A DNA stretch of 64,000 nucleotides from an uncultured Clostridia bacterium (GTDB lineage Bacteria > Bacillota > Clostridia > Oscillospirales > Ruminococcaceae): positions 1 through 64,000 of the forward strand of contig CANQNF010000014.1 in NCBI GenBank assembly GCA_947625125.1, given 5' to 3'. The translations under genes were made by a program, and so were the position numbers. The notes beneath the pieces are model-generated. The model worked only from the letters and a program-made list of their open reading frames with translations, ran no database searches and had not been told where the DNA came from. Shown here one piece after another: positions 1 to 17,746 of the stretch (position 1 is its first letter; every line of letters starts with the position of its first letter).

Positions 1-705
1 TACGAGCGCGAGCACGTCCACAGCTACGGCGACGACTATAAGACAGACGAAACAAACCACTGGAAAGTCTGCGAGACCTGCGGCGAAGCAGGGGACAAGG
101 AAGCCCACAACTTTGACGGCGACGTCTGCACCGTCTGCGGTTACGAGCGCGACCACGTTCACAGCTACGGCGACGACTATAAGACCGATGAGAACAACCA
201 CTGGAAAGTCTGCGAAACATGCGGCGAAGCCACTGACAAGGAAGCTCACAAGTTTGACGGCGACGTCTGCACCGTCTGCGGCTACGAGCGCGAGCACGTC
301 CACAGCTACGGCGACGACTATAAGACAGACGAAACAAACCACTGGAAAGTCTGCGAGACATGCGGTGAACCCACCGAAAAGGAAGCCCACAACTTTGACG
401 GCGACGTCTGCACCGTCTGCGGCTACGAGCGCGAGCACGTCCACAGCTACGGCGACGAATACAAGACCGACGAGAACAACCACTGGAAAGTCTGCGAAAC
501 ATGCGGTGAAGCCACTGACAAGGAAGCCCACAACTTTGACGGCGACATCTGCACCGTCTGCGGTTACGAGCGCGACCACGTCCACAGCTACGGCGACGAC
601 TATAAGACCGACGAGAACAACCACTGGAAAGTCTGCGAGACATGCGGCGAAGCCACTGACAAGGAAGCCCACAAATTTGTAGGCAACAAGTGCTCCGTAT
701 GCGGC
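1..705 (+). repeat. Five tandem 141-bp in-frame coding repeats
   Basis: Units begin at 1, 142, 283, 424 and 565, each exactly 141 bp (47 codons), and differ at only a few positions per unit. The sixth unit breaks off at 706, where the sequence diverges into the linker. Upstream copies may lie outside the window. The near identity at nucleotide level, including synonymous sites, points to recent duplication or gene conversion and to possible copy-number variation. Confidence 0.95.
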
Positions 706-1164
706 TACACCAAGTCCGGCGGCACCGGCACTCCGAGCCGTATTCCCGAAAGATACCGTCCCGGCGCTTCGACTCCCGCCAAGGAACTCATCGTAGAGCC
801 CGTCGAGGTATCCGAGGACATCCACTCCGAGGTCGTGGGCATTGTGTCCGCCGCCGGCATGGTCCACGGCGTATACTTCATCTCCCTCGGCACGACGGAC
901 TACAAGCCCGGTCAGCCGGTCAGAGTGAGGGTCTACGCCCCCGGCGCTACCGGCGACAGCGTCGTCCTAATCCGCGACGAATGGGAGCTCCTCAAGGACG
1001 CCAACATGACGGTCGACGGCGACTACGTCGAGTTTACCGTCGACGCGGGCCTCATCGACGCCTACCACTACTTCGCGGTGGTCACCGGCTTCGACGGCTA
1101 CGTCGAGATCGGCGTTCCCCAGCAGGCTAAGATCTCCCACGAGACTGAAAACACCGTAAAATAA
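1..1164 (+). CDS. Cys/His-repeat surface-type protein, C-terminal part
   Basis: The reading frame is open from base 1 to a TAA at 1162-1164, so only the last 387 codons are in the window. Codons 1-235 are five 47-residue repeats. Each carries an HVHSYG segment, the motif NHWKVCETCGE, a conserved KEAHNF or KEAHKF, and CTVCGYER; the two CxxC pairs plus histidines suggest a small metal-binding or disulphide-bonded module. A Gly/Pro/Ser-rich linker follows (TKSGGTGTPSRIPE), then about 130 residues that look like a beta-sandwich (VYFISLGTTDYKPGQPVRVRV). Such CxxCG/HxH repeats occur in secreted clostridial proteins, so an extracellular location is inferred. The start, signal peptide and function cannot be seen. 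No C-terminal anchor (LPXTG or membrane helix) is present. Other-frame ORFs here are shadows of the repeat. Confidence 0.85.
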   Translation, partial: YEREHVHSYGDDYKTDETNHWKVCETCGEAGDKEAHNFDGDVCTVCGYERDHVHSYGDDYKTDENNHWKVCETCGEATDKEAHKFDGDVCTVCGYEREHVHSYGDDYKTDETNHWKVCETCGEPTEKEAHNFDGDVCTVCGYEREHVHSYGDEYKTDENNHWKVCETCGEATDKEAHNFDGDICTVCGYERDHVHSYGDDYKTDENNHWKVCETCGEATDKEAHKFVGNKCSVCGYTKSGGTGTPSRIPERYRPGASTPAKELIVEPVEVSEDIHSEVVGIVSAAGMVHGVYFISLGTTDYKPGQPVRVRVYAPGATGDSVVLIRDEWELLKDANMTVDGDYVEFTVDAGLIDAYHYFAVVTGFDGYVEIGVPQQAKISHETENTVK

Positions 1165-1180
1165 GGCTTTTACAGCATTA

Positions 1181-1210
1181 AAGGACGCGGCCGGGCGCTG
1201 CGTCCTTTTT
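1181..1210 (+). terminator. Rho-independent terminator of the repeat protein gene
   Basis: The stem AAGGACGC (1181-1188) pairs with GCGTCCTT (1200-1207) across an 11-base loop and runs into a T tract. It lies 16 bases after the stop codon. Confidence 0.85.
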
Positions 1211-1591
1211 CATGTAAAGAAAAAAGCTTTACACATATGATATACCTTTTAAATATATGTAAAGCGGCCCCGCTTTACAGTCTTATAAGCACTATAATTT
1301 TTTGATATGCGCAGTATTTTTGTGCATAATGCGAATTTTCGGCAGGTTTTTCTTCCGAACCCGTGAATAATTATTCGTCCGAAAATGTATTATTGTATAC
1401 GCATTTTAATAGGTGTGCTTCATAAGAAAACGCCTGTGCACCGGGTAATTACAACCCGCCTTTGCATGCCCGTAAAACCGCGTTTGGACAATGCGGAAGA
1501 AAAATTAACCTAATCTATCATCAACATTGCCGTTTATGCAGGTTGAAAACAAAAAAATTCAGTGCAAAATACCGAAATCTCGAAAAAAATA
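1211..1591. promoter_or_regulatory. Non-coding region with paired GTAAAG/CTTTAC inverted repeats
   Basis: No gene is visible here. Two inverted repeats share the same ends: GTAAAG(1214-1219)...CTTTAC(1227-1232), and the longer GTAAAGCGG(1259-1267)/CCGCTTTAC(1270-1278). A 12-bp palindrome GAATAATTATTC lies at 1365-1376. The repeated half-site could be an operator or a second small terminator. With the 550-bp gap before the binding-protein gene it suggests regulation of that gene, but no known regulator motif is recognised. Confidence 0.35.
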
Positions 1592-1621
1592 TTGACAAAC
1601 CCTCGGTCTTAGTAGTATCAT
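1592..1621 (+). promoter_or_regulatory. Sigma-A-type promoter for the binding-protein gene
   Basis: TTGACA at 1592-1597 is a perfect -35. The best -10 is TATCAT at 1616-1621 (18-base spacer), with TAGTAT at 1613-1618 as an alternative. The leader of about 90 bases before the gene contains a small hairpin (GCTGC...GCAGC near 1675-1689). Confidence 0.65.
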
Positions 1622-1715
1622 TCATATAAGCTTATCTTGGCAATACTCCGTATTTCCGGGATAAAGCGCACACCTGCTGCTATAAGCAGCTACCCTTATA
1701 AGGAGGCACTATCTG

Positions 1716-3944
1716 ATGAAAAAGTTTTTAAGCTTGTTGCTTGCTGCCGCTATGGTTTTAAGCCTTGTCGGCTGCGGTGACAATGCCGACGCTCCCGTTA
1801 CCTCGGGAGATGAAGGCAACACTCCTCCTGCGGTTGACAACGTAGAAGTCAACACCGACTATGTCGGACCCGACTGGGAGGCTATAGACGCTATGGACTA
1901 CGACGCACAGTCCGACGCTGTCTATGAACACAACCTCGGCGAGTTTGCCGCTGCTTACGCGACCGCCAAGGAAGAACTCGACGATACCGACAAGCGTCTC
2001 GCCCTCATGGCTGTTGCCGAGGCTAAGATGCTCGAATCCGGCGTTTTCGTCCCGATTTACGGCGACGGCGGAACCTACGCTATGACGAGAGTCGTACCGC
2101 GTTCTGCTACCACCACCTCTTGGGGCCTTGACGAGTACAAGGATTACACCATGCTCGTCACCAACGAACTCCTCAAGAGCACCGACCGCGACGCTCTGAC
2201 CGCTCTCTGGTCCGAGGCTGCCACCGCTGACGACTATGTCGCTTCCGCCAAGCAGTACCTCGCCGACAACGGCTACACCCTCACCGATACCTACAACGCT
2301 CTCAACGGTTACGACCTTGAGACCTGGGATATCATCGCTACTTCCTACACCTCCGACTCGTTCTTCATCGCTCCCACCTACACCGGACTTCTTGAGTACG
2401 ATCTTAAGAACGTACAGCAGCCCGCTATGGCTGAGAGCTATGAGATCTCCGACGACGGCTGCGTTTACACCTTCCACCTCAGACAGGATGGCAAGTGGGT
2501 CGACCAGCAGGGCCGTGAGATCGGCAATGTCACTGCCGACGACTGGGTCGCTTCCATGGAGCACGTTGCCGATAACAACGACGCCCTCGGTTACTTAATG
2601 TCTTCCGACGGCGGCTGCGGCATCAAGAACTACGACGCTTTCATCAACGGCGAGTGCGACTTCTCCGAGGTCGGCGTAAAAGCCCTCGATGATTACACCC
2701 TTCAGTACACTCTTGAGCAGAAGTTCCCTGCATTTATCACCATGCTCGGCTACGGCTGCTTCGCTCCTCTGAACCGTGACTTCTACATGTCCCAGGGCGG
2801 TACTTTCTCCGCCGACGGCGTAGAGTACACCCCCGGCGACTACGGCAAGACTCCTGCCAACATCGCCTACAACGGTCCTTACACCATCACCAACTACACT
2901 GCTCAGAACGTAACCTCCTACGCCGCCAACCCGCTCTACTATGATCCGGACGCTCTCGGCGTACAGGCTATCAACTTCTACTACAACGACGGTACCGATG
3001 TTCTTCGTGCTTACAACGAAGCCAAGGCCGGCACTGTAGCCGCTTGCGGCTTCAACGCCAACGCCTTAGAGCTTGCTAAGACCGAGGTCCCGGACGGCGA
3101 GACTGAGACCTACTTCGATCTCTATCACTACACCACCGTCAACTCCGCCACCACTTACTGCGGCTGGCTCAACATCAACCGTAAGGCTTTCGCCAACTTC
3201 AACGACGCCACCCTCGGCGTATCTCCTCAGTCTGAGGAAGACAGAGCAAGAACCCGTGAAGCCATGAACAACCAGAACTTCCGTCTTGCCCTCGCCATGG
3301 CGTTCGACCGCGGCGCTTACAACGGCGTTCAGGTCGGTGAGGATCTTAAGTATGCGTCTCTTAAGAACTCCTATGTAACCGGTGCTTTTGCACAGCTCGC
3401 AAACGAGACCACCGTTGACATCAACGGCGAGTCCAAGACCTATCCTGCCGGTACTTACTACGGCGTCATCCTCCAGGATCAGATCACCGCTGACGGTTAT
3501 CCGATCAAGGTTTGGGATCCTACCGCTGATTCCGGCGCAGGCTCCGGCGACGGCTTCGACGGCTGGTACAGCGTAGACAACGCAAGAGCATATCTTGCTT
3601 CCGCTATCGCTGAGCTCGCCAACGAGGGCGTTGAGATCTCCGCTGACAAGCCGATCTACATCGACTATCCTTACGGCACCTACAGCGAAGTCAACACCAA
3701 CATGGCCAACGCTTACAAGCAGTCCATCGAGGCTTCTCTTGAGGGCAAGGTCATCGTCAACCTCGTAGGCTTCGACGACAGCCTCAACCTCCAGTATGCT
3801 TACTACCGCAACACCTACGGCAGCGAAGCTAACTTCGACATCTCGACCGGTTCCGGCTGGGGTCCTGACTACGGCGATCCTCAGACCTTCCTTGATACCA
3901 TCCAGTCCTACGGCTACATGTGCAAGAACCTTGGTATCTACTAA
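1716..3944 (+). CDS. Peptide ABC transporter binding lipoprotein, apparently circularly permuted
   Basis: 742 residues. A signal peptide ends in the lipobox LVGC (Cys20). AAGGAGG at 1700-1706 supports the ATG. The core from about residue 196 onward matches a family 5 (OppA/DppA) binding protein from its normal N-terminus: LLEYDLKNVQQPAMAESYEI, then YTFHLRQDGKWV and NVTADDWVASMEHV. It stops right after GWGPDYGDPQTFLDT (near 714-728). In OppA-type proteins that motif is normally followed by about 80 more residues with an AExxLxxxxxxxPxY block. That block instead sits at residues 75-150 here, just behind the lipobox: RLALMAVAEAKMLESGVFVP then a YAMTRVVP segment. The gene therefore looks permuted, not truncated. 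It probably delivers peptides to the downstream Opp permease. The ligand is unknown. Confidence 0.88.
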   Translation: MKKFLSLLLAAAMVLSLVGCGDNADAPVTSGDEGNTPPAVDNVEVNTDYVGPDWEAIDAMDYDAQSDAVYEHNLGEFAAAYATAKEELDDTDKRLALMAVAEAKMLESGVFVPIYGDGGTYAMTRVVPRSATTTSWGLDEYKDYTMLVTNELLKSTDRDALTALWSEAATADDYVASAKQYLADNGYTLTDTYNALNGYDLETWDIIATSYTSDSFFIAPTYTGLLEYDLKNVQQPAMAESYEISDDGCVYTFHLRQDGKWVDQQGREIGNVTADDWVASMEHVADNNDALGYLMSSDGGCGIKNYDAFINGECDFSEVGVKALDDYTLQYTLEQKFPAFITMLGYGCFAPLNRDFYMSQGGTFSADGVEYTPGDYGKTPANIAYNGPYTITNYTAQNVTSYAANPLYYDPDALGVQAINFYYNDGTDVLRAYNEAKAGTVAACGFNANALELAKTEVPDGETETYFDLYHYTTVNSATTYCGWLNINRKAFANFNDATLGVSPQSEEDRARTREAMNNQNFRLALAMAFDRGAYNGVQVGEDLKYASLKNSYVTGAFAQLANETTVDINGESKTYPAGTYYGVILQDQITADGYPIKVWDPTADSGAGSGDGFDGWYSVDNARAYLASAIAELANEGVEISADKPIYIDYPYGTYSEVNTNMANAYKQSIEASLEGKVIVNLVGFDDSLNLQYAYYRNTYGSEANFDISTGSGWGPDYGDPQTFLDTIQSYGYMCKNLGIY

Positions 3945-3975
3945 TTCTATCTTGAACTTAACAGTCTAAGATAAA

Positions 3976-4018
3976 GCCGCAAGGGGGTGGGAATTTCCCA
4001 TCCCCTTTGCGCTTATTT
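3976..4018 (+). terminator. Intercistronic terminator-like hairpin after the binding protein
   Basis: GCAAGGGGGTGGGA (3979-3992) pairs with TCCCATCCCCTTTGC with a short AT-rich loop, followed by GCTTATTTC. The poor T tract suggests partial read-through. That would let the binding protein be made in excess over the permease, a common arrangement in binding-protein transporters. Confidence 0.7.
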
Positions 4019-4115
4019 CGGAATATGCTTTGTGCAATATGACGAAAACACATCATGCCGCACACATTCAATAAATTGCGACAGTCGCAATCAAGAGACG
4101 GAGTGAAGCAAAAAA

Positions 4116-5708
4116 ATGGGCAAATATCTTGTGAAGAGGATTCTTCACGGCATCGTGTCGGTTATCTGCGTTGTCATAATAGTTATGATCTTGGTCTATT
4201 CGCTGCTGCAAAGAGAGCTCATCTTCGGCGGCGACCCCAACTACTCCAAAATGGTCTCCAACGCGCGTACCACCTATGAGTACAGCCGCTACGAGGCCTT
4301 CGGCTATGTAGACTACATACCATATGCCGACTACATCAACTCCCTGATTTCGAGCGGAGAGCTCAACTCGGAAACCCGTAAGGACGCCGTCAGACTCGGC
4401 AGGACCGCCGACGACGACAACGAGACCGCCGCTAAATATGTCAAGCAGTTCAGCGAGATGTATCAGTCAAAGGGCTACGAGATCATGAGGCTCGACGCCG
4501 ATACAAAATCAAACGGCCAGATTAAGGACGGCGGCCAGCCGACCATCTTCGCCGTAAGAGACAAACCCCTTATAAGCAGGGTCGTCAATTATTTCACCCA
4601 TATGCTGTTTATCGACAATATCCACTATGTTGACGAATCTGTCGATATCGGCAAGAGGGGACTGACATTCACCCTCTACGACCCCGTGTATAATCCGACC
4701 GGTACGGAGCATAAATTCTCTCCGGCAATTATCGGCAACGGAACACTGCACAAATATCTTCTTTATTTCGACGGGCATTTCCCGTTTATTCACCAGCAGT
4801 TTGCGACTCTTAACCTTGGCGAATCCTATACCGTCAACCGCGGTATCGACGTTTTCACCACCATGACCGAGTCGCAGGGCTCATACGTTTTAAAGCCTAT
4901 GACGTTCCCGACCGGCCTCGTTGAGGATTCTGCGGACGATCTGCATTCCGCGACCTACTCTGCGGGCTCAAGAGACATGAACAAGGCTTACGCTGAGCGC
5001 TTTACAGACGACTATACTAATGTGCTTACCCATAAGGTAGGTAAATCCAGACTCGGATATTCCTTCGTTATAGGTATAATTTCAACCATTTTGGCATATA
5101 TCCTCGGACTTCCCATTGGACTCCTGATGGCAAGATACAAAGACGGCATCTTAGACAAGATAGGCACCGTCTATATCATGTTCATCATCGCTGTCCCGTC
5201 CCTGGCATACATCTTCCTCTTCAAGGCATTGGGCGGAAGCTGGTTCCACCTGCCGACGCTCTTTAACGTCGACTCTAAGGATAAGCTTATGTACATCCTG
5301 CCGATCATCTCTCTGGCGCTCCCGAGCGTTGCGAACCTCATGAAGTGGATGCGCCGCTACATGATCGACCAGATGAACTCCGACTATGTTAAGTTTGCCC
5401 GTTCGGGAGGACTTTCCGAGACGGAGATCTTCACAAAGCATATATGGAAGAACGCCGCCATCCCGATCACCCACGGCATTCCCGGAAGCGTTATCTTTGC
5501 GATGACCGGAGCCATCATCACCGAGCGCGTCTACTCCGTACCCGGCGCCGGCGGACTCCTGACAGTCGCCATAAACAAATACGACAACGGCGTTATCGTC
5601 GGCGTCACGCTGTTCTACGCGATACTCTCGGTTATTTCCATTATACTGGGAGACGTGCTGATGTCGATGGTAGACCCGAGAATTTCGTTCTCAGATAAAG
5701 CGAGGTGA
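4116..5708 (+). CDS. oppB: Oligopeptide ABC transporter permease OppB with large external insert
   Basis: 530 residues, about 200 more than usual OppB/DppB (310-340). TM1 is at about residues 8-30. The canonical five-helix permease part resumes near residue 313 (LGYSFVIGIISTILAYILGL) and ends with the usual EAA loop (DYVKFARSGGLSETEIFTKH, 423-442) and the C-terminal DPRISF. The extra ~280 residues (31-312) lie between TM1 and TM2, so they should be extracytoplasmic. They contain no cysteine and no motif I recognise. They may form a docking or gating domain for the unusual binding protein. ATG preceded by GGAG; the stop overlaps the oppC start region. Confidence 0.9.
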   Translation: MGKYLVKRILHGIVSVICVVIIVMILVYSLLQRELIFGGDPNYSKMVSNARTTYEYSRYEAFGYVDYIPYADYINSLISSGELNSETRKDAVRLGRTADDDNETAAKYVKQFSEMYQSKGYEIMRLDADTKSNGQIKDGGQPTIFAVRDKPLISRVVNYFTHMLFIDNIHYVDESVDIGKRGLTFTLYDPVYNPTGTEHKFSPAIIGNGTLHKYLLYFDGHFPFIHQQFATLNLGESYTVNRGIDVFTTMTESQGSYVLKPMTFPTGLVEDSADDLHSATYSAGSRDMNKAYAERFTDDYTNVLTHKVGKSRLGYSFVIGIISTILAYILGLPIGLLMARYKDGILDKIGTVYIMFIIAVPSLAYIFLFKALGGSWFHLPTLFNVDSKDKLMYILPIISLALPSVANLMKWMRRYMIDQMNSDYVKFARSGGLSETEIFTKHIWKNAAIPITHGIPGSVIFAMTGAIITERVYSVPGAGGLLTVAINKYDNGVIVGVTLFYAILSVISIILGDVLMSMVDPRISFSDKAR

Positions 5709-5713
5709 GCATG

Positions 5714-6697
5714 ATGGATAACGAACTCAATTTAAAGTACAACATGACCGACGAGGAGCTTTTCGCCCCTGTCGACCATAACGACCTCGAATCCGAGAAG
5801 ATCACCGCTCCCCGTTATTCCTACTGGCGCTCGGTCTTCAGAGTATTCTTCCGCAACAAGCTCAACATCATCATCCTTCTGCTGCTTGTGTTCATCATAG
5901 TGTTCGCGTTCATCTACCCCGCGGTCACGCACTATGACGCCGACGTCACTCCCTACGTCAACCTCCTTGACCCGAACTCGAAGCACCTTTCTCCCGCAAA
6001 GGCTTTAAGCTACTTCGGCAAAAACATCCACTGGATACTCGGTTCGGGCGCGTCGGGCGAATCCACGTTCGACTCCATCTGGTACGGTTCGAGAATTTCC
6101 ATTTCTTTGGCATTCATCTGCGCCGCCATCAACATGACGGTAGGCGTTCTGATAGGAGCGGTCTGGGGCTTCTCGAAGAAAGTCGATATGGTAATGACCG
6201 AGGTCTATAACATCGTCGGCAACGTTCCGTCGATACTTCTCATCTCGGTTTTAGCGATGCTCTTCTCCCCGACGTTCTGGACGATGGTATTCGCCCTTAC
6301 GGTCATCGGCTGGCTCGGGATTGCTTACTTCATCAGAACTCAGGTCGTCATCATCAGAGACCGCGAGTACAATCTCGCCTCAAGATGCCTCGGCACCTCT
6401 ACGTTCAAAATAGCGATGAAGAACATTCTCCCATTCATGACCTCCGTCATCGTCACGATGCTCGCCACCGAGCTTCCGAGCTACATCTCCACCGAGGTCT
6501 TCCTCGCCTACATCGGCATGGGCATGTCCGATATGTCCTTAGGACGTCTCATCTATGCCGCCGAGGGCGCGATGGTAACTCCCGGCTGGCAGATGGAATT
6601 CTGGAGCCCCGTTGCAATAGCGTCGATAATCACCGTCGTTCTTTATGTGGTCGGCCAGAACTTAGGCGACGCCTCCGACCCGAGAACGCATATGTAA
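5714..6697 (+). CDS. oppC: Oligopeptide ABC transporter permease OppC
   Basis: 327 residues from this ATG, with a typical OppC/DppC layout: cytoplasmic N-terminal tail, TM1 at about 40-62 (NIIILLLLVFIIVFAFIYPA), an external loop, five further helices, the EAA loop (YNLASRCLGTSTFKIAMKNI) and a C-terminal GDASDPRTHM, close to the usual DPR ending. The reading frame is open from a GTG at 5705 that overlaps the oppB stop. The tandem ATGs at 5711 and 5714 follow GAGGTGA, and 5714 has the better spacing. It pairs with OppB to form the membrane channel. Unlike OppB it shows no insertion. Confidence 0.92.
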   Translation: MDNELNLKYNMTDEELFAPVDHNDLESEKITAPRYSYWRSVFRVFFRNKLNIIILLLLVFIIVFAFIYPAVTHYDADVTPYVNLLDPNSKHLSPAKALSYFGKNIHWILGSGASGESTFDSIWYGSRISISLAFICAAINMTVGVLIGAVWGFSKKVDMVMTEVYNIVGNVPSILLISVLAMLFSPTFWTMVFALTVIGWLGIAYFIRTQVVIIRDREYNLASRCLGTSTFKIAMKNILPFMTSVIVTMLATELPSYISTEVFLAYIGMGMSDMSLGRLIYAAEGAMVTPGWQMEFWSPVAIASIITVVLYVVGQNLGDASDPRTHM

Positions 6698-6709: not shown

Positions 6710-8467
6710 GTGGAAGATAAAAAGGTACTTTTGTCCATCAAGGACTTATCGGTAAAATTCCGCGTCAGAGGCCGTATTCTTACCGCCATCCGCGGCATCA
6801 GCCTCGACATCTATGAAAACGAATCCATCGCGATAGTCGGCGAATCCGGCTCCGGCAAATCTGTATTCACGAAAACGTTCGCCGGCATGCTCGATTCAAA
6901 CGGCTTCATTAGCGAGGGCCAGATAATCTTCTCCGACGATGAGCTCGCCGACACCAAGGTCTCTCTGAATCCCGTCGCAAACTCTCTTATCAACTTCTCT
7001 CTCAAGAAGCTCAACGAGTATTCAAAGCTTGAATACGGCTCCGAAGAGTATCTTGAGATGATTAAGTTAGACGCCGAAAAGCGCGAGAAATCGACGGTAG
7101 GGGAGGAGGAGCTTGCAAAGTATACGAAGCAGATAGCCGACCTTACACACGAGCGCACCAATCTCTTCAATTTAAAGCAGACCTTTGACCCGAAGAATGA
7201 AAAGGACAAGATACACGACGCAGCCGCCAAGATAAAGGACTATGACCATAAGATAAAGGCCTTAGAGGACGAGATGGCCGAAAAGACCAAGGTCAAAAAA
7301 GCCGAGGCGAAAAGCGATACCGCATATCTTGCAGCATACTCTAAGAAAAAGAGCGAGCTGACTGCCCAGAGAAATGAAAAAATCAAAAAGGACATCACGC
7401 CCGAGACTGTCAAGAGAAACGAAATCCTGGCAAAAGAGATCTATCTCTCGGTCGGCCGCTACGGCTTTGTCAAGAGAGTAAAGCTCATCTTCGGTCTCCT
7501 CAAGGCCCTTAAGAAAGCCATGGAGATGGGCGTCGACCTGAGCGACGAGACCCTAAGGAACCACGTTTTCGACGAGGTCGTGTTCAGGGTAAGATATCTC
7601 GACGAGACTCCCGAGCAGCTCCACGGCACCTGCATCTTAAACCTTGCCAACGTCAAGTACGACAAGGACTGGATGCAGATAAGAGGCCGCAGGATAGCTA
7701 CGGTTTTCCAGGACCCGATGACCTCTCTGAACCCGATCATCACCATCGGCAAGCAGATAACCTCCATCATCATGAAGCACCAGGGCTGCACCGAAGCCGA
7801 GGCGAGAAAGCGCGCTATAGAGCTTATGCACAAGGTCGGCATCCCGAAGCCCGAGATGCGTTTCGACGACTATCCGTTCCAGTATTCCGGCGGTATGCGC
7901 CAGAGAATCGTTATCGCGATAGCCCTTTCCTGCCAGCCTAAGATACTGATATGCGACGAGCCCACCACGGCCCTCGACGTCACCATCCAGGCTCAGATCC
8001 TCCAGCTTATAAAGGATCTCCAGAAAGAATTCAACTACACCATCGTATTCATCACCCACGACCTCGGCGTCGTTGCGAATATCGCCGACCGAGTAGCGGT
8101 TTTGTATGCAGGTCAGATAGTCGAGCTCGGCACCGTAGAAGAGATATTCTACGAGCCCCACCACCCCTACACATGGGCGCTTCTGTCCTCGCTGCCTCAG
8201 CTTGCCAAGAGCGATGAGAAACTCTACTCCATCACCGGCACGCCTCCGTCCCTGTATAACCAGATAATCGGCGACGCGTTTGCACCGAGAAACCCCTACT
8301 GCCTCAGGATAGACACCTTAGAGGAGCCTCCGATGTTTAAGATCTCCGAGACCCACAGCGCCAAGACATGGCTTTTGGACTCCCGTTCCCCGAAGATCGA
8401 AAAGCCCGAGGGCATCAGGGACATCCATGAAAAGATACTCTCGGCGTATAACATCGAGGAAATATAA
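6710..8467 (+). CDS. oppD: Oligopeptide ABC transporter ATPase OppD with ~240-residue insert
   Basis: 585 residues against about 330-350 for the family. GTG start with AGGAGGG 7 bases upstream. Walker A is GESGSGKS (44-51), Q-loop [11 protein letters not shown] (332-342), signature YSGGMRQR (392-399), Walker B ILICDEP (412-418), H-loop H450. Between Walker A and Q-loop, residues about 76-320 form a Lys/Glu-rich, largely helical, probably coiled-coil insert where the family normally has about 40 residues. The C-terminal HPYT (485-488) is present. The Cys-rich motif that binds an Fe-S cluster in DppD-like proteins is degraded to [11 protein letters not shown]. ATPase activity should be intact. 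The insert may be a regulatory or scaffold element. Confidence 0.9.
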
Positions 8468-8482
8468 AGGAGGCGGACAGAT

Positions 8483-9778
8483 TTGGCTAACGATAAAAAG
8501 CACACCATAATGGGCGAGTGCCCTGTCGACGAGAACGGCAGAGAGATACTCTTGCAGCTCAAAAACGTCGACATAACATTCGGCAAGGGCGACACTGCCG
8601 TAAAAGCGGTCCAGAACGCCACCTTTGACATCTATAAAGGCGAGACATTCTCGCTGGTCGGCGAGTCCGGCTCCGGCAAGACCACGATAGGCAGAGCGGT
8701 CATCAGGGTAAACCCCTTGGCAGGCGGTGAGATTTTATATCGCGGCACAAGGATCTCCGGCAAGATCTCCCACGCTCTTGACCGTGAAGTAATAAGAAAC
8801 ATCCAGATGGTATTCCAGGATCCCGCCGCTTCTTTGAACGAGCGCGCAACGGTAGATTACATCATCTCCGAGGGTCTTTATAACTTCCACCTCTTTGAAA
8901 ACGAGGCCGACAGAGTCCACAAGGTCGAAGAAATGATAGAGGCTGTTGGACTTTTGCCGGAGCATCTTACCCGTTACCCTCATGAATTCTCCGGCGGCCA
9001 GCGCCAGAGAATAGGCATCGCAAGAGCGATGGTCATGGAGCCGGAGCTTGTCGTCGCCGACGAGCCCATCTCGGCTCTCGACGTATCGGTAAGAGCCCAG
9101 GTCTTGAACCTGATGAAAAAATTCCAGCGTGAGAAAGACCTCACCTATCTCTTTATCGCCCACGACCTTTCGGTGGTACGCTTCATCTCCGACCGAATCG
9201 GCGTTATCTACAAGGGCAGGATAGTCGAGATAGCCGAGGCCGAGGAGCTCTTCAACTTCCCGCTCCATCCCTACACTCACTCCCTTATTTCCGCAATACC
9301 CATCCCGGACCCGCTTCTTGAGAAGAACAAGGTCCTCTATACCTACGACCCGTCCATCCACGACTACTCCGTCGATAAGCCGGAGCTTGTGGACATCGGT
9401 CACAATCACTTCGTGTACGGCAACAAAAAGGAGATCGAGGAGGCAAAGGCCATCCGTGAGAAAGGCGAGCCTGTAAAGGCCATCACCATTACACACGATC
9501 CCGCCAAGCTCAAATCTGCGGCAGCCTCCGATGACGCCGAGGATGAGGCGGCAGAGGCACAGTTCCTCCGGGCGCCTATCCACGATACAGGCTCAAAGCT
9601 TTACACCGTTTTATCATTCCTGCTCCCCGTCATAGGAATCATTTTGGGCCTTATATTCAGAAAGGCCAACCACATCCGCAACTACAAAGCCTGCCGCAAG
9701 GGGGCCATCGCCGGGTTTATACTTATCGGCGTGATTTTGGTCATCTTCCTGTTGCTGCTGCTTTTAGCGGTAATCTGA
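8483..9778 (+). CDS. oppF: Oligopeptide ABC transporter ATPase OppF with C-terminal membrane hairpin
   Basis: 431 residues. The start is TTG at 8483, 9 bases after AAGGAGG. Walker A GESGSGKT (60-67), Q-loop [11 protein letters not shown], signature [15 protein letters not shown], Walker [15 protein letters not shown] and H-loop IAHDLS are all intact. HPYT is present. Past it, the usual short Cys-containing tail is replaced by about 150 residues: a charged stretch with an acidic part ([13 protein letters not shown]), then two hydrophobic helices ([12 protein letters not shown] and [19 protein letters not shown]) separated by a basic loop. An ATPase subunit with its own membrane anchor is unusual. 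I see no frameshift or second start that would make the tail a separate gene. Confidence 0.9.
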
Positions 9779-9779
9779 C

Positions 9780-11033
9780 GTGGGACGCACAGTAAGACAA
9801 AGAGCGCCGAGGCCGCCTGCTGAGGTGGAAAAGGTCGAGCTCAACGACAAGCATCTCGGTCTGAGAATTGCCGGAGCCGTCTTCTTCCTCATAGTAGGCG
9901 CTTCGGCGCTTGCCTATGCTATCTCGGGGTTCTTCACGGGTTCAAAGGGCTGGCGCGAGGTGGGAACGCTCGAATCCGACGGCGTGACATGCGCGCAGGA
10001 CTTCACGTTCATGTACGACATAGGCTCAAACGGCTCCGTCAGCACCGAAAACCGGGAGCTCACCGAGCTTTACTCCCATGCCGCAAAAAAAGCATACGAG
10101 CAGTTCAGCCTCATGGAAATAGACGGCGTGACCAATCTTCGGACGTTGAATCAGTCCCCGAACGTCGAGCTGACCCTCGACCCGCTTTTATACGAAGCCC
10201 TTGAAAAGGTCTGCGAAAGCGGCGACAGGACCGTCTTTTTGGGCCCTGTGTATGAAATTTACAACGGTCTTTTCAAGCTTGAATTCAAGGAAAACGCCGC
10301 CGACTACGACCCGCTTCTGAACCCGGATATTGCCGAGCTTTTCAAAAATATTTGTTTATATGCCGCCGACCCGTCTCACATAAGCCTTGAGCCTTTAGGC
10401 GGCGGCAGGCTCAGGCTCAACGTCTCACGCGAATACCAAAGCTTCATGCAGGAAAACGAGCTCACAAACTACGTCGATTTTTGCTGGCTGAAAAACGCCT
10501 TTATCATCGACTACTTTGCCGAGGAAATATCCTCAGCCGGGTACCGAAACGGCACTCTTTCAAGCCGCGACGGCTACAGCATAAGCCTCGGAGGCGAAGA
10601 AGCCGGTTTCACGGTCTTTCACAGGCTCCTTGACGGCGTTTACCCCCTCGGAGTCATGAGATTCACCGCCCCAAGAAGCGTGGTATATTTAAGAGATTAT
10701 ATCATCTCATCCTCCGATTCCGAAAGCTATATCGAGCTTGAAAACGGCGAGGTAAGAACGCCCTATCTCGACCCCGCCGACGGCGTATGCAAAAGCTCTA
10801 CCCCTGACGTCACTGCCTATTCCGACGGATATTCCTGCTCGGACATCGCTTTAAAACTGGCTCCGATATATTGTGCTGAATCTTTTGATGAGACTGCGGC
10901 AAAGTCCCTGACAAAAGAGGGGATATATCTCTTATACGGCACCGACAGCGCCGTATACTACACCGGCGACAAGTCGCCCCTGACCGAGCGCTACAGCGAA
11001 AGCGAAGCCGTGGAAATATTAAGGGCAGAGTAA
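9780..11033 (+). CDS. Membrane-anchored protein resembling a degenerate ApbE fold
   Basis: 417 residues starting at a GTG two bases after the oppF stop, so probably translationally coupled. An N-terminal cytoplasmic stretch is followed by one membrane helix (LRIAGAVFFLIVGASALAYA, about 29-48) and a large external domain. Three blocks follow the order of ApbE (FAD:protein FMN transferase): LRTLNQSPNVELTLDPLLYE (like SEISRLN...VSPELY), NYVDFCWLKNAFIIDYFAEE (like the LDLGGIAKGYAVD region), and YLDP...YSDGYSCSDIALKL (like HIIDP...ADALST). Catalytic and Mg/FAD residues are mostly replaced. I infer an inactive ApbE-like or divergent external domain working with the Opp system; the resemblance is weak and needs a profile search. 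Confidence 0.55.
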   Translation: MGRTVRQRAPRPPAEVEKVELNDKHLGLRIAGAVFFLIVGASALAYAISGFFTGSKGWREVGTLESDGVTCAQDFTFMYDIGSNGSVSTENRELTELYSHAAKKAYEQFSLMEIDGVTNLRTLNQSPNVELTLDPLLYEALEKVCESGDRTVFLGPVYEIYNGLFKLEFKENAADYDPLLNPDIAELFKNICLYAADPSHISLEPLGGGRLRLNVSREYQSFMQENELTNYVDFCWLKNAFIIDYFAEEISSAGYRNGTLSSRDGYSISLGGEEAGFTVFHRLLDGVYPLGVMRFTAPRSVVYLRDYIISSSDSESYIELENGEVRTPYLDPADGVCKSSTPDVTAYSDGYSCSDIALKLAPIYCAESFDETAAKSLTKEGIYLLYGTDSAVYYTGDKSPLTERYSESEAVEILRAE

Positions 11034-11073
11034 ATTTTCCCTATGCCGTCTGCAAATGAATTTTTATATTTAA

Positions 11074-11108
11074 AAAAGCCGTATCCGGAATTCCCGGGTA
11101 CGGCATTT
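11074..11108. terminator. Bidirectional terminator between convergent genes
   Basis: GCCGTATCCGG (11078-11088) pairs with CCGGGTACGGC (11094-11104) with one G-U pair. An A tract lies on the left and a T tract on the right, so it can terminate both the opp operon and the convergent leucine-rich-repeat gene. Confidence 0.85.
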
Positions 11109-11111
11109 TCA

Positions 11112-12434
11112 TCATCCCACCTCAATTATCAGCACATTTTCTGTGCCCGAAAGCCAGTTTTCATCCTTTTCCATCGCCGCCCACTGCTCGGGCGTGCCCT
11201 CAAAAACTATCCTCTCGGCAGCCTCATTATGATGGTTCACGGCTCTCACCCCGCCGTACTCTATCCTCTCAAGGCTCGCCGGCAGGCGTATCTCCCCGAT
11301 ATATTCATAGTCGGATATCCCGCCGGATCTTATCTCGGTAACGCCCTCGGGAACCGCGACTACTTCGGCGTTTACGTTTCCGTATGCAAACGGCCCGATT
11401 ATTTTAACGCTTCCGTCGTCGGGCAAGCTCCCCGGGTCGAGCGTTAGCACCAACTCGCCCTCGTCCCTCGTGATAACACATCCTCCCGTGCTGTAATAAA
11501 CGGGATTTTCCTCGCTTATAACTATCTCGGAAATCCCGGCGCTGTCTGAAAATTCATACCTACCGCCGAACGCCTCGAAGCCTATTTCTTTAACGCTTGC
11601 GGGGATAAAAACGCTCGTTATCCCCGTGAATTCAAACGCCCTGCTGCCGATAATTTCAAGCCCCTCCGGCAGTGTTATTTCATCAACAGGATTACCCATA
11701 AACGCGTTACTTCCGATTTCTTTAAGGCCTTTCGGCAGAATAATATCTTCAAGCCTCGCCATATTGAAAGCCGAGTCCGAAACGGTTTTAACGCTTTTCG
11801 GCAGGTCGATGTGCCTGAGCGAATTGCAGTCGTTAAACGCATGCTCGCCTATGGACTCAACTCCGTCGGGGAGCGTGACGCTCTCAAGCAATGTGCAGCG
11901 CGTGAACATATACGCGGGTATCTCCTTAAGATTTTCCGGCAGCGTGACCGTGACAAGCCTCTCGCAATTCTCAAAAAGATGCTCTCCCAAAAAATCGACT
12001 TTTTTCGACAGAACGGCCCTTTCAAGCCCTCGGCAGTCCGCAAAGACATACCCCTCGATATATTTAACGCTGTCGGGAACGGTGATTTCGGTGATTGAAG
12101 TGCTCTTAAAAGCGCTCTCGCAGATTTTTTCGACAGTATCGGGTATGACGACCGATGTGATATTTCGCTCATCCCGAAACGCCCATCTCCCGATTTCCTT
12201 TACCGGAATTCCGTCCACGTCATGCGGGATAATAAGCTCGCTTTCGGAGTATGACCCGAGCCCGGTGACGGTGTAAAAGCTACCGTCGTCGCTGAGTTTC
12301 ATCGCAAGGACGTTTTCATCGCCCTCGCTGTCGCCGACGGTTTTTTGCGGCCTTGTCCCGAGGTATGCAAAAAGCGCCGCGACCGCAATTAAAACGACCG
12401 TCCCGAAGATTATCGTAGGCAGATATTTTTTCAT
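11112..12434 (-). CDS. Membrane-anchored BspA-type leucine-rich-repeat protein
   Basis: 440 residues. The N-terminus MKKYLPTIIFGTVVLIAVAA is a signal-anchor helix without a lipobox cysteine. Most of the remainder is tandem ~22-23-residue BspA-type (LRR_5) repeats, with units such as ITSVVIPDTVEKICESAFKS, ITEITVPDSVKYIEGYVFAD and LESVTLPDGVESIGEHAFND. This family forms a curved surface for binding proteins or glycans and is common in gut Clostridia. The ligand is unknown. A GGAGGAAA ribosome site precedes the ATG. Its 3' end converges on the opp operon. Confidence 0.85.
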   Translation of the reverse strand: MKKYLPTIIFGTVVLIAVAALFAYLGTRPQKTVGDSEGDENVLAMKLSDDGSFYTVTGLGSYSESELIIPHDVDGIPVKEIGRWAFRDERNITSVVIPDTVEKICESAFKSTSITEITVPDSVKYIEGYVFADCRGLERAVLSKKVDFLGEHLFENCERLVTVTLPENLKEIPAYMFTRCTLLESVTLPDGVESIGEHAFNDCNSLRHIDLPKSVKTVSDSAFNMARLEDIILPKGLKEIGSNAFMGNPVDEITLPEGLEIIGSRAFEFTGITSVFIPASVKEIGFEAFGGRYEFSDSAGISEIVISEENPVYYSTGGCVITRDEGELVLTLDPGSLPDDGSVKIIGPFAYGNVNAEVVAVPEGVTEIRSGGISDYEYIGEIRLPASLERIEYGGVRAVNHHNEAAERIVFEGTPEQWAAMEKDENWLSGTENVLIIEVG

Positions 12435-12508
12435 ATTTCCTCCTCGGCATTTTATTCATAAAGTAAATGCTCCGAACCCCCGTTTTATTGCAAGGCAGGA
12501 GATTTTTT

Positions 12509-12541
12509 ATATAAAAAACGGCTGCTCAACGGCAGCCGTTT
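12509..12541 (-). terminator. Rho-independent terminator of araD
   Basis: On the minus strand AAACGGCTGCC pairs with GCAGCCGTTT around a short loop and is followed by TTTTTTATAT. It lies 63 bases past the araD stop. Confidence 0.85.
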
Positions 12542-12603
12542 GACCGATTCGTCGGTTTACATTTTCATCGTATAAGAGCAGCTCCGCAGGCTTGCTCGCC
12601 CCC

Positions 12604-13302
12604 TCACTTCTTCACCTGTCCGTAATATGCGTTCGCGCCGTGCTTTCTTAAATAGTGCTTGTCCAAAAGCTCCTGCTGCATGGTCGGCACGTCCCCGCCG
12701 TAGATGATTTTTGAGTACATCGCCATCTTTGCGCATTCCTCAAGTATCACCGAATGATGCACCGAATCGACGGCGTCCTTGCCCCAGGTAAACGGCCCGT
12801 GCGAATGTACCAAAACGCAGGGGACTGCGTTCGGGTCGATGTCCTTGAATGTTTCGATAATTACAAGCCCGGTATTTTTTTCATATTCCCCGGCGATCTC
12901 CTCGGGGGTCATTTTTCTCGTGCAGGGCACTGCTCCGTAGAAATAGTCTCCGTGGGTAGTCCCGAGCGCAGGTATCGGTCTGCCGGCCTGGGCAAACGAC
13001 GTTGCAAACGTCGAGTGAGTGTGCGTGACCCCGCCGATGTCCTTGAACGCCTTGTAGAATTCGATATGGGTAGGAGTGTCGGAGGACGGCCTTAAATCGC
13101 CCTCGACCACCTTTCCGTCAAGGTCGACGACCACCATGTCCTCCGGCTTCATCTCGTCGTACTCAACGCCCGACGGCTTGATGACGACAAGACCCTTTTC
13201 GCGGTCGATGCCCGAGACGTTTCCCCATGTAAAGGTGATGAGCCCGTATTTCGGGAGCATCATATTGGCCTCATAGACCTCTCTTTTTAATTTTTCCAGC
13301 AT
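12604..13302 (-). CDS. araD: L-ribulose-5-phosphate 4-epimerase
   Basis: 232 residues, normal length for AraD, a class II aldolase-fold enzyme that interconverts L-ribulose 5-phosphate and D-xylulose 5-phosphate in the cytoplasm. Typical blocks are [22 protein letters not shown], the zinc-ligand region [36 protein letters not shown] and [12 protein letters not shown]. No other arabinose genes are adjacent, so it may serve a scattered pentose pathway. The ATG follows an AAAGG site. A related class II aldolase (fuculose-phosphate type) is less likely given the AraD-specific TTHGD segment. Confidence 0.9.
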
Positions 13303-13358
13303 TTTTTTCAGAACCTTTCTTTTTTACGGCAACATCCTGCCGCTTGATTCATATAATG

Positions 13359-13841
13359 TTATTGCAGCTCGGCATGGCTCACCAAAATCCCCTGCGGAAT
13401 TATGTCGATAACGGCATAGGACGGCGCTCTGCTGTCTCTCGGCTCGCCCAAGCTTCCGGGGTTCACGAAATACACCCCGTCCTTGTAGTCGCAGTATCTG
13501 ACATGCGTATGCCCGAAAAGAACCATATCCGCCCCGTTCTGCTCAGCCAAGCTTTTCAGCTGTGAAATCCCGAAGTTCACAAGATGCCGATGCCCATGGG
13601 TAAAAATAATCTTTTTACCGGCGGCCTCGGTAACTCCCACCGCGGGATTTAGCGAAGCGTGGTCGCAGTTTCCCGGCACCGACAGAATTCTCTTGTCCGG
13701 ATACAGCGCGAACATATTGTCTATATCGGATTCTATGTCCCCGAGAAAAATATAGAGGTCCGTCGTAAGATGTGTTTGCTCAAAGAGCCTGTGCACCCTG
13801 TCGTGATGGCGGTGAGTGTCCGAAAAGGCGATGATACGCAT
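13359..13841 (-). CDS. YfcE/MJ0936-type metallophosphoesterase
   Basis: 160 residues. All motifs of the small calcineurin-like phosphodiesterases are present: FSDTHRHHD, FLGDIESD, VPGNCDH, THGHRH and FGHTHVR, followed by NPGSLGEPR. The family hydrolyses phosphodiesters with a two-metal centre; the physiological substrate is usually unknown. A GGAGCG ribosome site precedes the ATG. It is divergently placed from the small-gene cassette at 13918. Confidence 0.9.
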   Translation of the reverse strand: MRIIAFSDTHRHHDRVHRLFEQTHLTTDLYIFLGDIESDIDNMFALYPDKRILSVPGNCDHASLNPAVGVTEAAGKKIIFTHGHRHLVNFGISQLKSLAEQNGADMVLFGHTHVRYCDYKDGVYFVNPGSLGEPRDSRAPSYAVIDIIPQGILVSHAELQ

Positions 13842-13871
13842 AAATACGCTCCTATCATGTTTTATACATTC

Positions 13872-13900
13872 ATTATATCATACCCGGTTAAATTTTTCAA
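13872..13900 (-). promoter_or_regulatory. Promoter for the metallophosphoesterase gene
   Basis: On the minus strand TTGAAA (13895-13900) and TATAAT (13872-13877) are separated by 17 bases, 30 bases upstream of the ATG. Confidence 0.75.
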
Positions 13901-13917
13901 TAGCAGGAGGAAATATT

Positions 13918-14163
13918 ATGGACCTGAATAAAAATCAGCAGGAAATGTTAATTTCGATGACTTCAAAAAAACTCGGCGTAGGGGAGGACGACTTAAGGCG
14001 GGAGCTCTCTGCCGGAACCTTTGACAGGCTTTTGAACACGCTTCCGCAAAACGACCGCCAAAAGCTCACGGCCGCCCTGTCAAATCCCGCGACCGCACAG
14101 GCCGTCCTTTCAAGCCCGCAGGCCAAAGCGCTCATGCAGAAGCTCTTCGGCGGCAAAAAATAA
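13918..14163 (+). CDS. Small conserved-looking protein, unknown function (cassette gene 1)
   Basis: 81 residues from the ATG at 13918, chosen because AGGAGGAAA lies 5-12 bases upstream; the open frame extends further up but without a ribosome site. The protein is soluble and helical, with no cysteine: MDLNKNQQEMLISMTSKKLG at the start, then LNTLPQNDRQKLTAALSNPA and a basic end (LFGGKK). It opens a tight three-gene unit (gaps 18 and 12 bases) read divergently from the phosphoesterase. I do not recognise the family. Confidence 0.75.
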   Translation: MDLNKNQQEMLISMTSKKLGVGEDDLRRELSAGTFDRLLNTLPQNDRQKLTAALSNPATAQAVLSSPQAKALMQKLFGGKK

Positions 14164-14181
14164 CATTCGGAGGCGAAAACT

Positions 14182-14529
14182 ATGGAGGATCTGGCCGAGA
14201 GGATAAACTCGCTTTTGAGCGACCCGGAATCTTTAAAACAGCTTAACGAGCTTGCACAGTCTCTCGGCCTGCCCGGCCCTCCGACGGAGGCGCCCGCGTC
14301 ATCCGAGCCGGTTCCCGATATGACCGCCCTCATGGGACTTGCCTCAAAGATCCGCTCCGCCTCCGAAAACGACGACAACATCAATTTTCTCATAGCCCTG
14401 CGGCCGCTTTTGAGCGATGAAAAAAAGCCCCGTGTGGACAGGGCCGTGAAGCTTCTGAGGCTTATAAACGTCCTGCCGGCGCTTAAGGATTCGGGGCTTT
14501 TGGGAAGCGATTTTTTAAACCTGATATAA
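14182..14529 (+). CDS. Small protein, unknown function (cassette gene 2)
   Basis: 115 residues, ATG after CGGAGG. It has a helical start (MEDLAERINSLLSDPESLKQ), a Pro/Ala/Ser linker (LGLPGPPTEAPASSEPVP) and a helical, basic second half (VDRAVKLLRLINVLPALKDS). No membrane helix is visible. The pattern of short helices joined by a flexible linker resembles gene 1. Function unknown; co-transcription with its neighbours is inferred from spacing. Confidence 0.75.
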   Translation: MEDLAERINSLLSDPESLKQLNELAQSLGLPGPPTEAPASSEPVPDMTALMGLASKIRSASENDDNINFLIALRPLLSDEKKPRVDRAVKLLRLINVLPALKDSGLLGSDFLNLI

Positions 14530-14541
14530 GGGGGAGAGCAT

Positions 14542-14856
14542 ATGCCGGGAGATAAAAGCGATTTCAACGCCATGCAGGAGGAAGCCCTGCGAAGAATGAG
14601 GGAGATGCAAAAGCGCTCAAGGACCGCTGTCTCCCCGAATACGGAAAGGGCCTCTTTGCACCCCGAGACCCGTGAAACCCCTAAAAAAGCAGGGGAATCC
14701 GGGCCGTCAAGGGAACAAAGAGACCCTCTCGGCACGCTCTTGGGGGACTTTAAAATCGACCCCGAAAAAGCGATGATACTTTTGATGCTTTTGATACTTT
14801 ACCGCAACAAGGCCGACATGAAGCTTTTGCTCGCCCTCGGGTATCTTCTGATGTGA
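14542..14856 (+). CDS. Small protein with C-terminal hydrophobic helix (cassette gene 3)
   Basis: 104 residues, ATG after AGGGGGAGAG. The first two thirds are charged and probably disordered (EEALRRMREMQKRS, then a Pro/Glu/Arg stretch). The end holds a hydrophobic segment (AMILLMLLILY) and a second weaker one (MKLLLALGYLLM), so this member may place the cassette at the membrane. The unit ends 4 bases before the convergent 27-codon gene. Function unknown. Confidence 0.75.
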   Translation: MPGDKSDFNAMQEEALRRMREMQKRSRTAVSPNTERASLHPETRETPKKAGESGPSREQRDPLGTLLGDFKIDPEKAMILLMLLILYRNKADMKLLLALGYLLM

Positions 14857-14860
14857 GTTT

Positions 14861-14944
14861 TCAGCATTCCCGTCTCTCATCCACCCTGTCCGCGAGCCAT
14901 GCTATTGCTAAAATTGCGAAAACTATCCCGAAAAATCTTCTCAT
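14861..14944 (-). CDS. 27-residue membrane microprotein downstream of bceB
   Basis: Reading MRRFFGIVFAILAIAWLADR then VDERREC and TGA. The ATG lies one base after the bceB stop and 6 bases behind a perfect GGAGG (within GCTAAGGAGGATTAGTATG). It has one hydrophobic helix (about 5-17) with basic N-terminal and mixed-charge C-terminal ends, as in known single-pass regulatory microproteins. Coupling to bceB suggests an accessory of the Bce transporter; this is inference. It is too short for ordinary gene calling. Confidence 0.6.
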   Translation of the reverse strand: MRRFFGIVFAILAIAWLADRVDERREC

Positions 14945-14945
14945 A

Positions 14946-16985: not shown

Positions 16986-17746
16986 TGCCGGTCGCCTCCC
17001 GTCGCCAAGAGAGTGAGCGAGTCGGTTATTCTCTGATACATCTGCTCGTCGGTGTCCGAGCCCCTGTACAGCTGATGATACACGGCCCCGTCCCGGATAA
17101 ACAGCACTCTTGAAGCCACGCTCGCCGCCTTTATAGAGTGCGTGACCATTATAATCGTAAGGCCCGAGCAGTTCACGTCCCTAAAAAGCCCCAGCAGATC
17201 GTCCGATGACCTTGAATCCAAAGCCCCGGTAGGCTCGTCCGCCAAAATCACCATTGGGTCGGTTATCATAGCTCTTGCAACGGCTGCGCGCTGCTTTTGT
17301 CCGCCGGAAATCTCATAGGGATATTTTTTGAGTATCCCGGCTATCCCGAGCCTTTGGGCTATGTTCATAAGCTTTGACTGCATTTCCTTATAGGGCTTAG
17401 CGGCAAGAACAAGCGGCAGGTATATATTGTCCTCCACGGAAAACGTGTCCAAAAGATTGAATTCCTGAAACACAAATCCGAGATTATCCCGCCTAAACGC
17501 AGCTATAGACGACTCCTTTATCCTTGAAAGATCCACCCCTCCGAGGAGCACGGTGCCTCCCGTAGGCTTATCAAGCGCCGCTAAAATGTTCAAAAGCGTG
17601 GTCTTACCCGAGCCGGATTCGCCCATAATGGCGATGAATTCGCCCTCCTCAACGGAGAACGTCACGTTTCTCAGAGCCTCGACCTTGTTGCCGCCGAAGC
17701 GTGTGGAATAGGTCTTTTTAAGACCGCTGACCTCAATAAAGCTCAT
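16982..17746 (-). CDS. bceA: BceA-type ABC transporter ATPase
   Basis: 254 residues, normal for the MacB/BceA ATPase family. Walker A GESGSGKT lies at about residue 39-46, Q-loop FVFQEFNLLDTFSVEDN, signature ISGGQKQRAAVARAM, Walker B VILADEPTGALD and H-loop MVTHS. FQEFNLLDTLSV-type Q-loops are typical of BceA. It energises BceB; genes overlap ATGA-style. A BceR-type operator and promoter lie upstream. Confidence 0.93.
   Translation of the reverse strand: MSFIEVSGLKKTYSTRFGGNKVEALRNVTFSVEEGEFIAIMGESGSGKTTLLNILAALDKPTGGTVLLGGVDLSRIKESSIAAFRRDNLGFVFQEFNLLDTFSVEDNIYLPLVLAAKPYKEMQSKLMNIAQRLGIAGILKKYPYEISGGQKQRAAVARAMITDPMVILADEPTGALDSRSSDDLLGLFRDVNCSGLTIIMVTHSIKAASVASRVLFIRDGAVYHQLYRGSDTDEQMYQRITDSLTLLATGGDRQ

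Follow-up and report, generated by a model that had tools for sequence, protein, structure and literature searches.

Probable natural circular permutation of an Ami/Opp-type peptide-binding lipoprotein from Clostridia

The closest described relatives of the protein treated here, in sequence as well as in fold, are the substrate-binding proteins AmiA, AliB, AliC and AliD of Streptococcus pneumoniae (SBP_bac_5 family, cluster C). According to the parts of the AliD report on which we draw (PMC11192437), lobe 1 of AliD is composed of domain I (residues 29-63, 191-296 and 583-617) and domain II (64-190), and lobe 2 of domain III (297-582). The same sections describe W498 and D501 as holding the N-terminus of the peptide, I603 as lining pocket P1 and helix alpha19 (622-652) as packing against domains I and II; in the published Ami model, ECD2 of AmiC touches lobe 1 and a coil of AmiD touches lobe 2. 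Natural circular permutation has been described for a binding protein of another cluster, Tp0684 (MglB-2) of Treponema pallidum, which in the portion of PMC4990184 considered here is a glucose-binding protein of cluster B with relatives termed 'Type Ic / Cluster Bc', found also in gut Gram-positives. Its authors proposed tethering as a possible reason for the permutation and allowed for a segment acquired from another substrate-binding protein gene (PMC4990184, same portion). Among the titles and abstract starts surveyed, MglB-2 is the sole other natural permutation of an ABC-importer binding protein; with the protein described below there would be two separate cases. In the listed titles and abstract starts of the open-licence PubMed Central literature no permuted Opp or SBP_bac_5 protein appears, and reports elsewhere or beyond the papers listed are possible.

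The protein P0001 is encoded in the first part of a window of 64,000 nucleotides, the whole stretch of clostridial DNA analysed (Table 1). We interpret it, with a probability of about 0.92, as a natural circular permutant among the lipoproteins that bind substrate for Ami/Opp-type peptide importers. SBP_bac_5 (PF00496) is the sole Pfam family above its cut-off and matches residues 235-731 with 155.3 bits against a gathering cut-off of 32.4; a Pfam model covering the middle of a protein can hide a rearrangement of its ends. Compared with the Ami/Ali proteins as presented in the available sections of PMC11192437, P0001 shares the peptide-anchoring Trp/Asp pair, the lipoprotein nature, an enlarged AmiC-type permease and, by mapping, a counterpart of alpha19. 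Those proteins have the canonical order and keep their two ends in lobe 1; the chain of P0001 begins with what are their last ~105 residues, and mapping places its new termini on lobe 2. With MglB-2 it has in common the natural circular permutation of the binding lipoprotein of an ABC importer, but, as far as the portion of PMC4990184 used here describes it, MglB-2 has the sugar-binding fold of cluster B and an N-terminal part moved to the C-terminus with poor similarity of the moved part, whereas P0001 belongs to cluster C (Opp) and carries at its N-terminus a former C-terminal part whose similarity is significant. Membership in Type Ic / Cluster Bc is ruled out by the SBP_bac_5 match and by the best fold matches, which are of the OppA/Ami type. 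Ahead of the operon, positions 1-1164 of the window encode part of a protein truncated at the window edge, in which a nearly identical repeat (HVHSYGDDYKTDE.NHWKVCETCGE...KEAH.F.GD.CTVCGYE) recurs about five times.

Table 1. Positions of the permuted gene, its segments and the operon genes in the window
Feature	Position	Strand	Basis
Probable ribosome-binding site (Shine-Dalgarno) AAGGAGG	1700..1706	+	sequence
Permuted OppA P0001, 742 aa (ATG at 1716, stop at 3944)	1716..3944	+	ORF, Pfam, phmmer
Signal peptide and lipobox LVGC, lipid Cys20	1716..1775	+	sequence, lipobox scan
Tether, residues 21-63	1776..1904	+	segment bookkeeping and AlphaFold model
Moved block, residues 64-167, equivalent to the canonical Ami/Opp C-terminus	1905..2216	+	HMM/profile
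Helices 155-167 and 171-184, at AliD alpha19 by mapping	2178..2267	+	model, alignment, PMC11192437 (in part)
Bridge, 22 residues, old C-terminus to old N-terminus	2217..2282	+	segment bookkeeping
Residues 190-742, canonical N-terminus through domain III	2283..3941	+	Pfam, phmmer
W715 and D718, counterparts of AliD W498/D501	3858..3869	+	alignment; PMC11192437 (in part)
New C-terminus, residues 729-742	3900..3941	+	common end point across permuted ORFs
OppB, 530 aa, AmiC-like enlarged permease	4116..5708	+	
OppC permease	5705..6697	+	
OppD ATPase, ~226-aa insert (6959-7636) between Walker A and Q-loop	6710..8467	+	
OppF ATPase, C-terminal tail with two hydrophobic stretches (9590-9775)	8483..9778	+	
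Conserved sixth gene with one predicted TM helix; no match to any family	9780..11033	+	

In single-sequence phmmer searches the best PDB matches of P0001 are pneumococcal AmiA, AliC, AliB and AliD, and the three alignments shown (AmiA, AliC and AliB) each fall into two pieces of swapped order. The main piece runs from query residues 186-193 to 731-741 and corresponds to chain residues 2-16 to 499-506; the canonical N-terminal homology begins as late in the chain as the preliminary description had indicated. The second piece lies within query residues 65-167, corresponds to chain residues 515-615 and is not significant alone (i-Evalues of 0.46 for AmiA, 0.11 for AliC and 4.8 for AliB). Such values, 0.11-4.8 over the three chains, would also suit a truncated or decaying, nonfunctional OppA in whose linker an AExxL..PxY motif stands by chance. 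The block piece does, however, attain significance when the single sequence is replaced by a family profile: built on the 64-189 region in 31 permuted proteins and run against 177,635 PDB sequences, the profile matches the C-termini of AliC (E 1e-9, 518-627 of 633), AmiA (E 1.2e-7, 518-629 of 638), AliD (E 5.1e-7, 507-613 of 627) and AliB (E 6e-6, 516-616 of 626), and no other sequence of that set at E<=1. In the reciprocal direction, an HMM of 20 canonical C-termini finds P0001 at residues 76-167 with 39.8 bits, compared with a top score of 8.5 bits among 1000 shuffles, and matches 79 of the 80 permuted-locus proteins, the one missed (L082) having no N-terminus. Also at odds with decay are the block residues W136, G137, D139, A103 and K104, which are invariant in 65 aligned permuted proteins, as well as a conserved operon and a high-confidence AlphaFold model; to a nonfunctional remnant we assign a vanishingly small probability.

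The comparisons support a natural circular permutation, in which both segments are homologous to the canonical protein, swapped and near-complete. The AExxL..PxY block (VAEAKMLESGVFVPIYG) occupies residues 100-116; it had been correctly placed near the N-terminus, but not directly after the lipobox, from which a 43-residue linker separates it, and the moved segment comprises ~105 residues (64-167) rather than the ~80 first estimated. Across the fetched loci, the block HMM (residues 64-167) finds the block before the core in 104 ORFs (repeats included, where a genome stands under two locus ids) versus after the core in 20, its match there stopping 2-23 residues short of the C-terminus; one extra match near the end of a fragment (L025) was left unclassified, and 16 related ORFs have no block match at the threshold used. 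The gap extrapolated at the cut, computable for 12 of the 20 canonical proteins, lies between -4 and -1 residues for eight of them; the remaining four have +6 to +18 residues that lack a counterpart, a point against the permutation account. Overall, little is lost or doubled there. The bridge between block and core measures 22 residues in 102 of the 104 permuted ORFs and 24 in the other two. The end residue is identical in 101 of the 102 permuted ORFs having the last segment (L084 and L089 are cut and hence outside this set), L022 being two residues longer. In P0001 the last residue lies 24 positions past D718 of GWGPDYGDP, in keeping with the early observation that the protein stops soon after this motif, and the missing C-terminal part does not reappear directly downstream, just 171 bp separating the stop codon from oppB. 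Order, near-completeness and conservation are the observed part of the permutation account.

Because the source is a draft assembly of 101 contigs, a contig rearranged by assembly or binning also has to be weighed. A search of contigs from one genome per species yielded 456 relatives among 574 pattern matches, ranked by similarity to the permuted query; of the best 80, which were kept, 79 have the permuted order in their contig records, the exception (L082) being without the N-terminal part that would show it. Homologues of equal order thus exist in number, among them the records of two named strains, the cultured Roseburia inulinivorans DSM 16841 and Pseudoflavonifractor sp. MSJ-30, which also speak against a rearranged contig. 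An order common to 79 of the 80 best relatives leads us to reject an assembly error, and the open frame and conserved end points likewise speak against it; its probability is negligible. Together, the order in relatives, the conservation of the block and the profile tests are the grounds on which both artefact and truncation are rejected. A junction profile (residues 64-292) matches 5 of 391 genomes of the class sample across both halves with E values no weaker than 2.3e-94; the row that follows in this sample (E 3.9e-26) covers one half, as do the other matches listed. At E<=1e-30 the junction profile matches 18 of 31 genomes in the genus sample, 6 of 297 in the family sample and 2 of 398 in the phylum sample, these samples and that of the class overlapping (G000 is in each) and one family match, G069, beginning at profile position 36. 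An oddity of one species is ruled out by these matches across genus, family, class and phylum samples. Three contigs of 4.0-4.9 kb filed as Muribaculaceae, Rikenella and Pseudomonadota (L036, L052 and L063) carry a permuted gene that falls inside the clostridial clade, and are likely mis-binned.

The permuted proteins appear as one clade in the trees made. In the core tree, a quick search with SH-aLRT support only, 98 permuted rows lie on one side of a branch with support 100, adjoined by the canonical L023 and L124 (SH-aLRT 92). In a tree of the block alone, with 30 permuted rows chosen for spread and 20 canonical ones, the permuted rows adjoin canonical L124 (support 88) and L023 groups with other canonical proteins. 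The long branches of L023 and L124, of which the tree program warns, make the exact sister uncertain. These trees bear on another conceivable history, in which the block is a homologous segment from another substrate-binding protein gene and the native C-terminus was lost, so that a fusion would only look permuted. The position of L023 apart from the permuted proteins in the block tree would fit such a fusion, as would the block HMM, which scores higher for L118 and L119 (41 and 38 bits) than for the core's nearest relatives L023 and L124 (25 and 26 bits). An HMM of the End segment places the latter two at the top of the canonical set (80 and 76 bits), and the differing scores of the two segments leave room for a mixed origin. 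On the other hand, the block tree pairs the permuted proteins with L124 and the core tree with L023 and L124, and few residues are lost or repeated at the cut. We therefore regard a fusion as unlikely and retain the circular permutation, which would probably have originated either from a tandem duplication in oppA followed by partial deletion or from a transfer of the 3' end to a place behind the signal peptide. An intermediate form was seen in none of the fetched loci, which is a further point for a fusion. One locus (L111) carries a canonical-order opp operon (250-6651) directly upstream of the permuted one (7737-17309), with OppD and OppF fused in one ORF of 702 aa and an OppA without lipobox; this canonical copy is a distant paralogue in the core tree and hence no duplication intermediate.

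The AlphaFold model of P0001, computed with 65 permuted sequences as input, has a pLDDT of 91.3 and a pTM of 0.87 over 742 residues, residues 19-33 being the sole stretch with a pLDDT under 50. Its best Foldseek matches are AliC (3.2e-36), AmiA (3.6e-36), AliD (4.9e-36) and AliB (3.1e-35), with values for AliD of TMt 0.75 and rmsd 3.2 over 556 columns of a 624-residue target; Foldseek being a sequential aligner, these matches cover the sequentially alignable part and exclude the moved block. Over that part the model predicts the two-lobed OppA fold. The permutation proposed in the preliminary description is supported by two-way sequence tests with controls, the bookkeeping of cut and bridge, the conservation within one clade and the modelling, which gives one confident single fold.

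For mapping onto AliD, W715/D718 (invariant in the 65 aligned permuted proteins) were equated with W498/D501 and combined with the block-profile alignment, a hand count placing I603 and N608 right at offset 25. Projected onto the domain limits given in the available sections of PMC11192437, the break in the old chain falls between AliD residues ~525 and ~529, within domain III, which puts the new termini on lobe 2. The lipid anchor of permuted OppA would thus probably sit on lobe 2, in contrast to lobe 1 in the canonical proteins; the anchor at another face that had been suggested at the outset gains support by this route. The moved block would complete domain III at its end and contribute the final section of domain I. 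L138 stands at the position of AliD I603, beside the invariant W136, G137 and D139, and the two model helices 155-167 and 171-184 stand at alpha19 and lead into the first strand of the core (mapped on the same sections of PMC11192437). With AmiC ECD2 on lobe 1 and the AmiD coil on lobe 2, as in those sections, a tether on lobe 2 would leave from the other lobe.

The tether itself varies among the permuted proteins. The median distance from the Cys to the first domain is 53 residues in these compared with 15 in the canonical ones, and a lipobox is recognized by pattern in 84 of 104 permuted ORFs versus 19 of 20 canonical ORFs, 3 of the 20 permuted ORFs without the pattern being cut or incomplete at the N-terminus. 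The other 17 have a signal peptide and no lipobox by pattern (L046, L052, L058, L064, L068, L069, L070, L075, L077, L084, L091, L096, L101, L102, L104, L105 and L111). The tree requires at least 8 state changes among 95 rows, which suggests repeated losses of the lipid anchor, in bacteria for which a single membrane is expected.

In 77 of the 80 loci oppB follows the permuted gene; the three exceptions lie on contigs that stop there or truncate the gene. The suggested effect on docking to the enlarged OppB is less well supported than the permutation itself, and a tie of the AmiC-like OppB to the permuted form is rejected in view of canonical-order operons: a large OppB is present in L143 (498 aa) and L144 (520 aa), although absent from canonical L145 and L148, and is therefore not specific to the permuted proteins. 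L144 and L143 are the operons of the canonical Clostridia proteins L023 (G067) and L124 (G388), the nearest relatives in the core tree; they differ from the permuted operons by the canonical order, an OppD without insert and an OppF without hydrophobic tail. In the permuted operons, the spacing between Walker A and Q-loop exceeds 200 residues in all 65 OppD ORFs longer than 560 aa, a filter that favours long OppD; of the shorter rows, L040 and L082 are truncated at a contig end and L053 is split. The corresponding spacing is 53-54 in L144 (54), L145, L148 and the canonical copy of L111; for L143 the pattern gave no measure, and a BLAST alignment indicates absence of the insert. The insert has no PDB match at E<=0.1. 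Hydrophobic stretches past residue 330 occur in 63 of 63 OppF proteins longer than 400 aa from permuted operons and are absent from the OppF of canonical-order L143, L144 and L145; the two stretches may be membrane helices. As a separate observation, oppB of Roseburia inulinivorans DSM 16841 (L095:10252-11825) is split across two overlapping frames in the draft record, which reflects either a sequencing error or a real frameshift.

Of the 80 loci, 59 contain the sixth gene; 19 of the remaining 21 have at most 326 bases of contig after the last matched gene, and in L090 and L109, with 1.4 and 2.2 kb past oppF, a match to it is absent. Within the class sample of 391 genomes it occurs in two, both carrying the permuted gene, and it is unmatched in G161, G174 and G325, where the permuted gene is present, if both class samples are identical. 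Pfam and NCBIfam searches with 21 members of the protein family gave no significant match. The AlphaFold model of the sixth-gene protein has a pLDDT of 89. Its best PDB match, TM1553 (1vrm), which we take to be an ApbE-type flavin transferase, is not significant (E 0.39), but the two matched pieces are collinear and leave a very diverged ApbE fold possible.

From these data we propose the following scenario for the permuted OppA. The canonical chain would have been cut in domain III (lobe 2), ~24 residues past the peptide-binding Trp/Asp pair, and its old C-terminus joined to the old N-terminus by a bridge of 22-24 residues including part of the alpha19-equivalent helix, with signal peptide and lipid Cys placed ahead of the moved block. 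The permuted protein is expected to fold as a normal two-lobed OppA, to close on peptides via W715/D718 and the moved part of domain I around L138, and to hand the bound peptides to OppBCDF, with a lipid tether exiting from lobe 2 and not, as in canonical relatives, from lobe 1. More tentatively, and with the balance tilted against it, the lobe-2 tether, the OppD insert, the OppF tail and the usual membrane-anchored sixth protein may have co-evolved as parts of a distinct Opp importer of gut Clostridia. If so, the move of the tether would alter the opening, docking and retention of the binding protein.

Beside the sugar-binding MglB-2, P0001 would represent a case from the peptide-binding cluster in which the homology of the moved part is clear and relatives are at hand in cultured gut commensals. 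The permuted proteins would provide a natural experiment on whether docking and transport depend on which lobe bears the lipid anchor.
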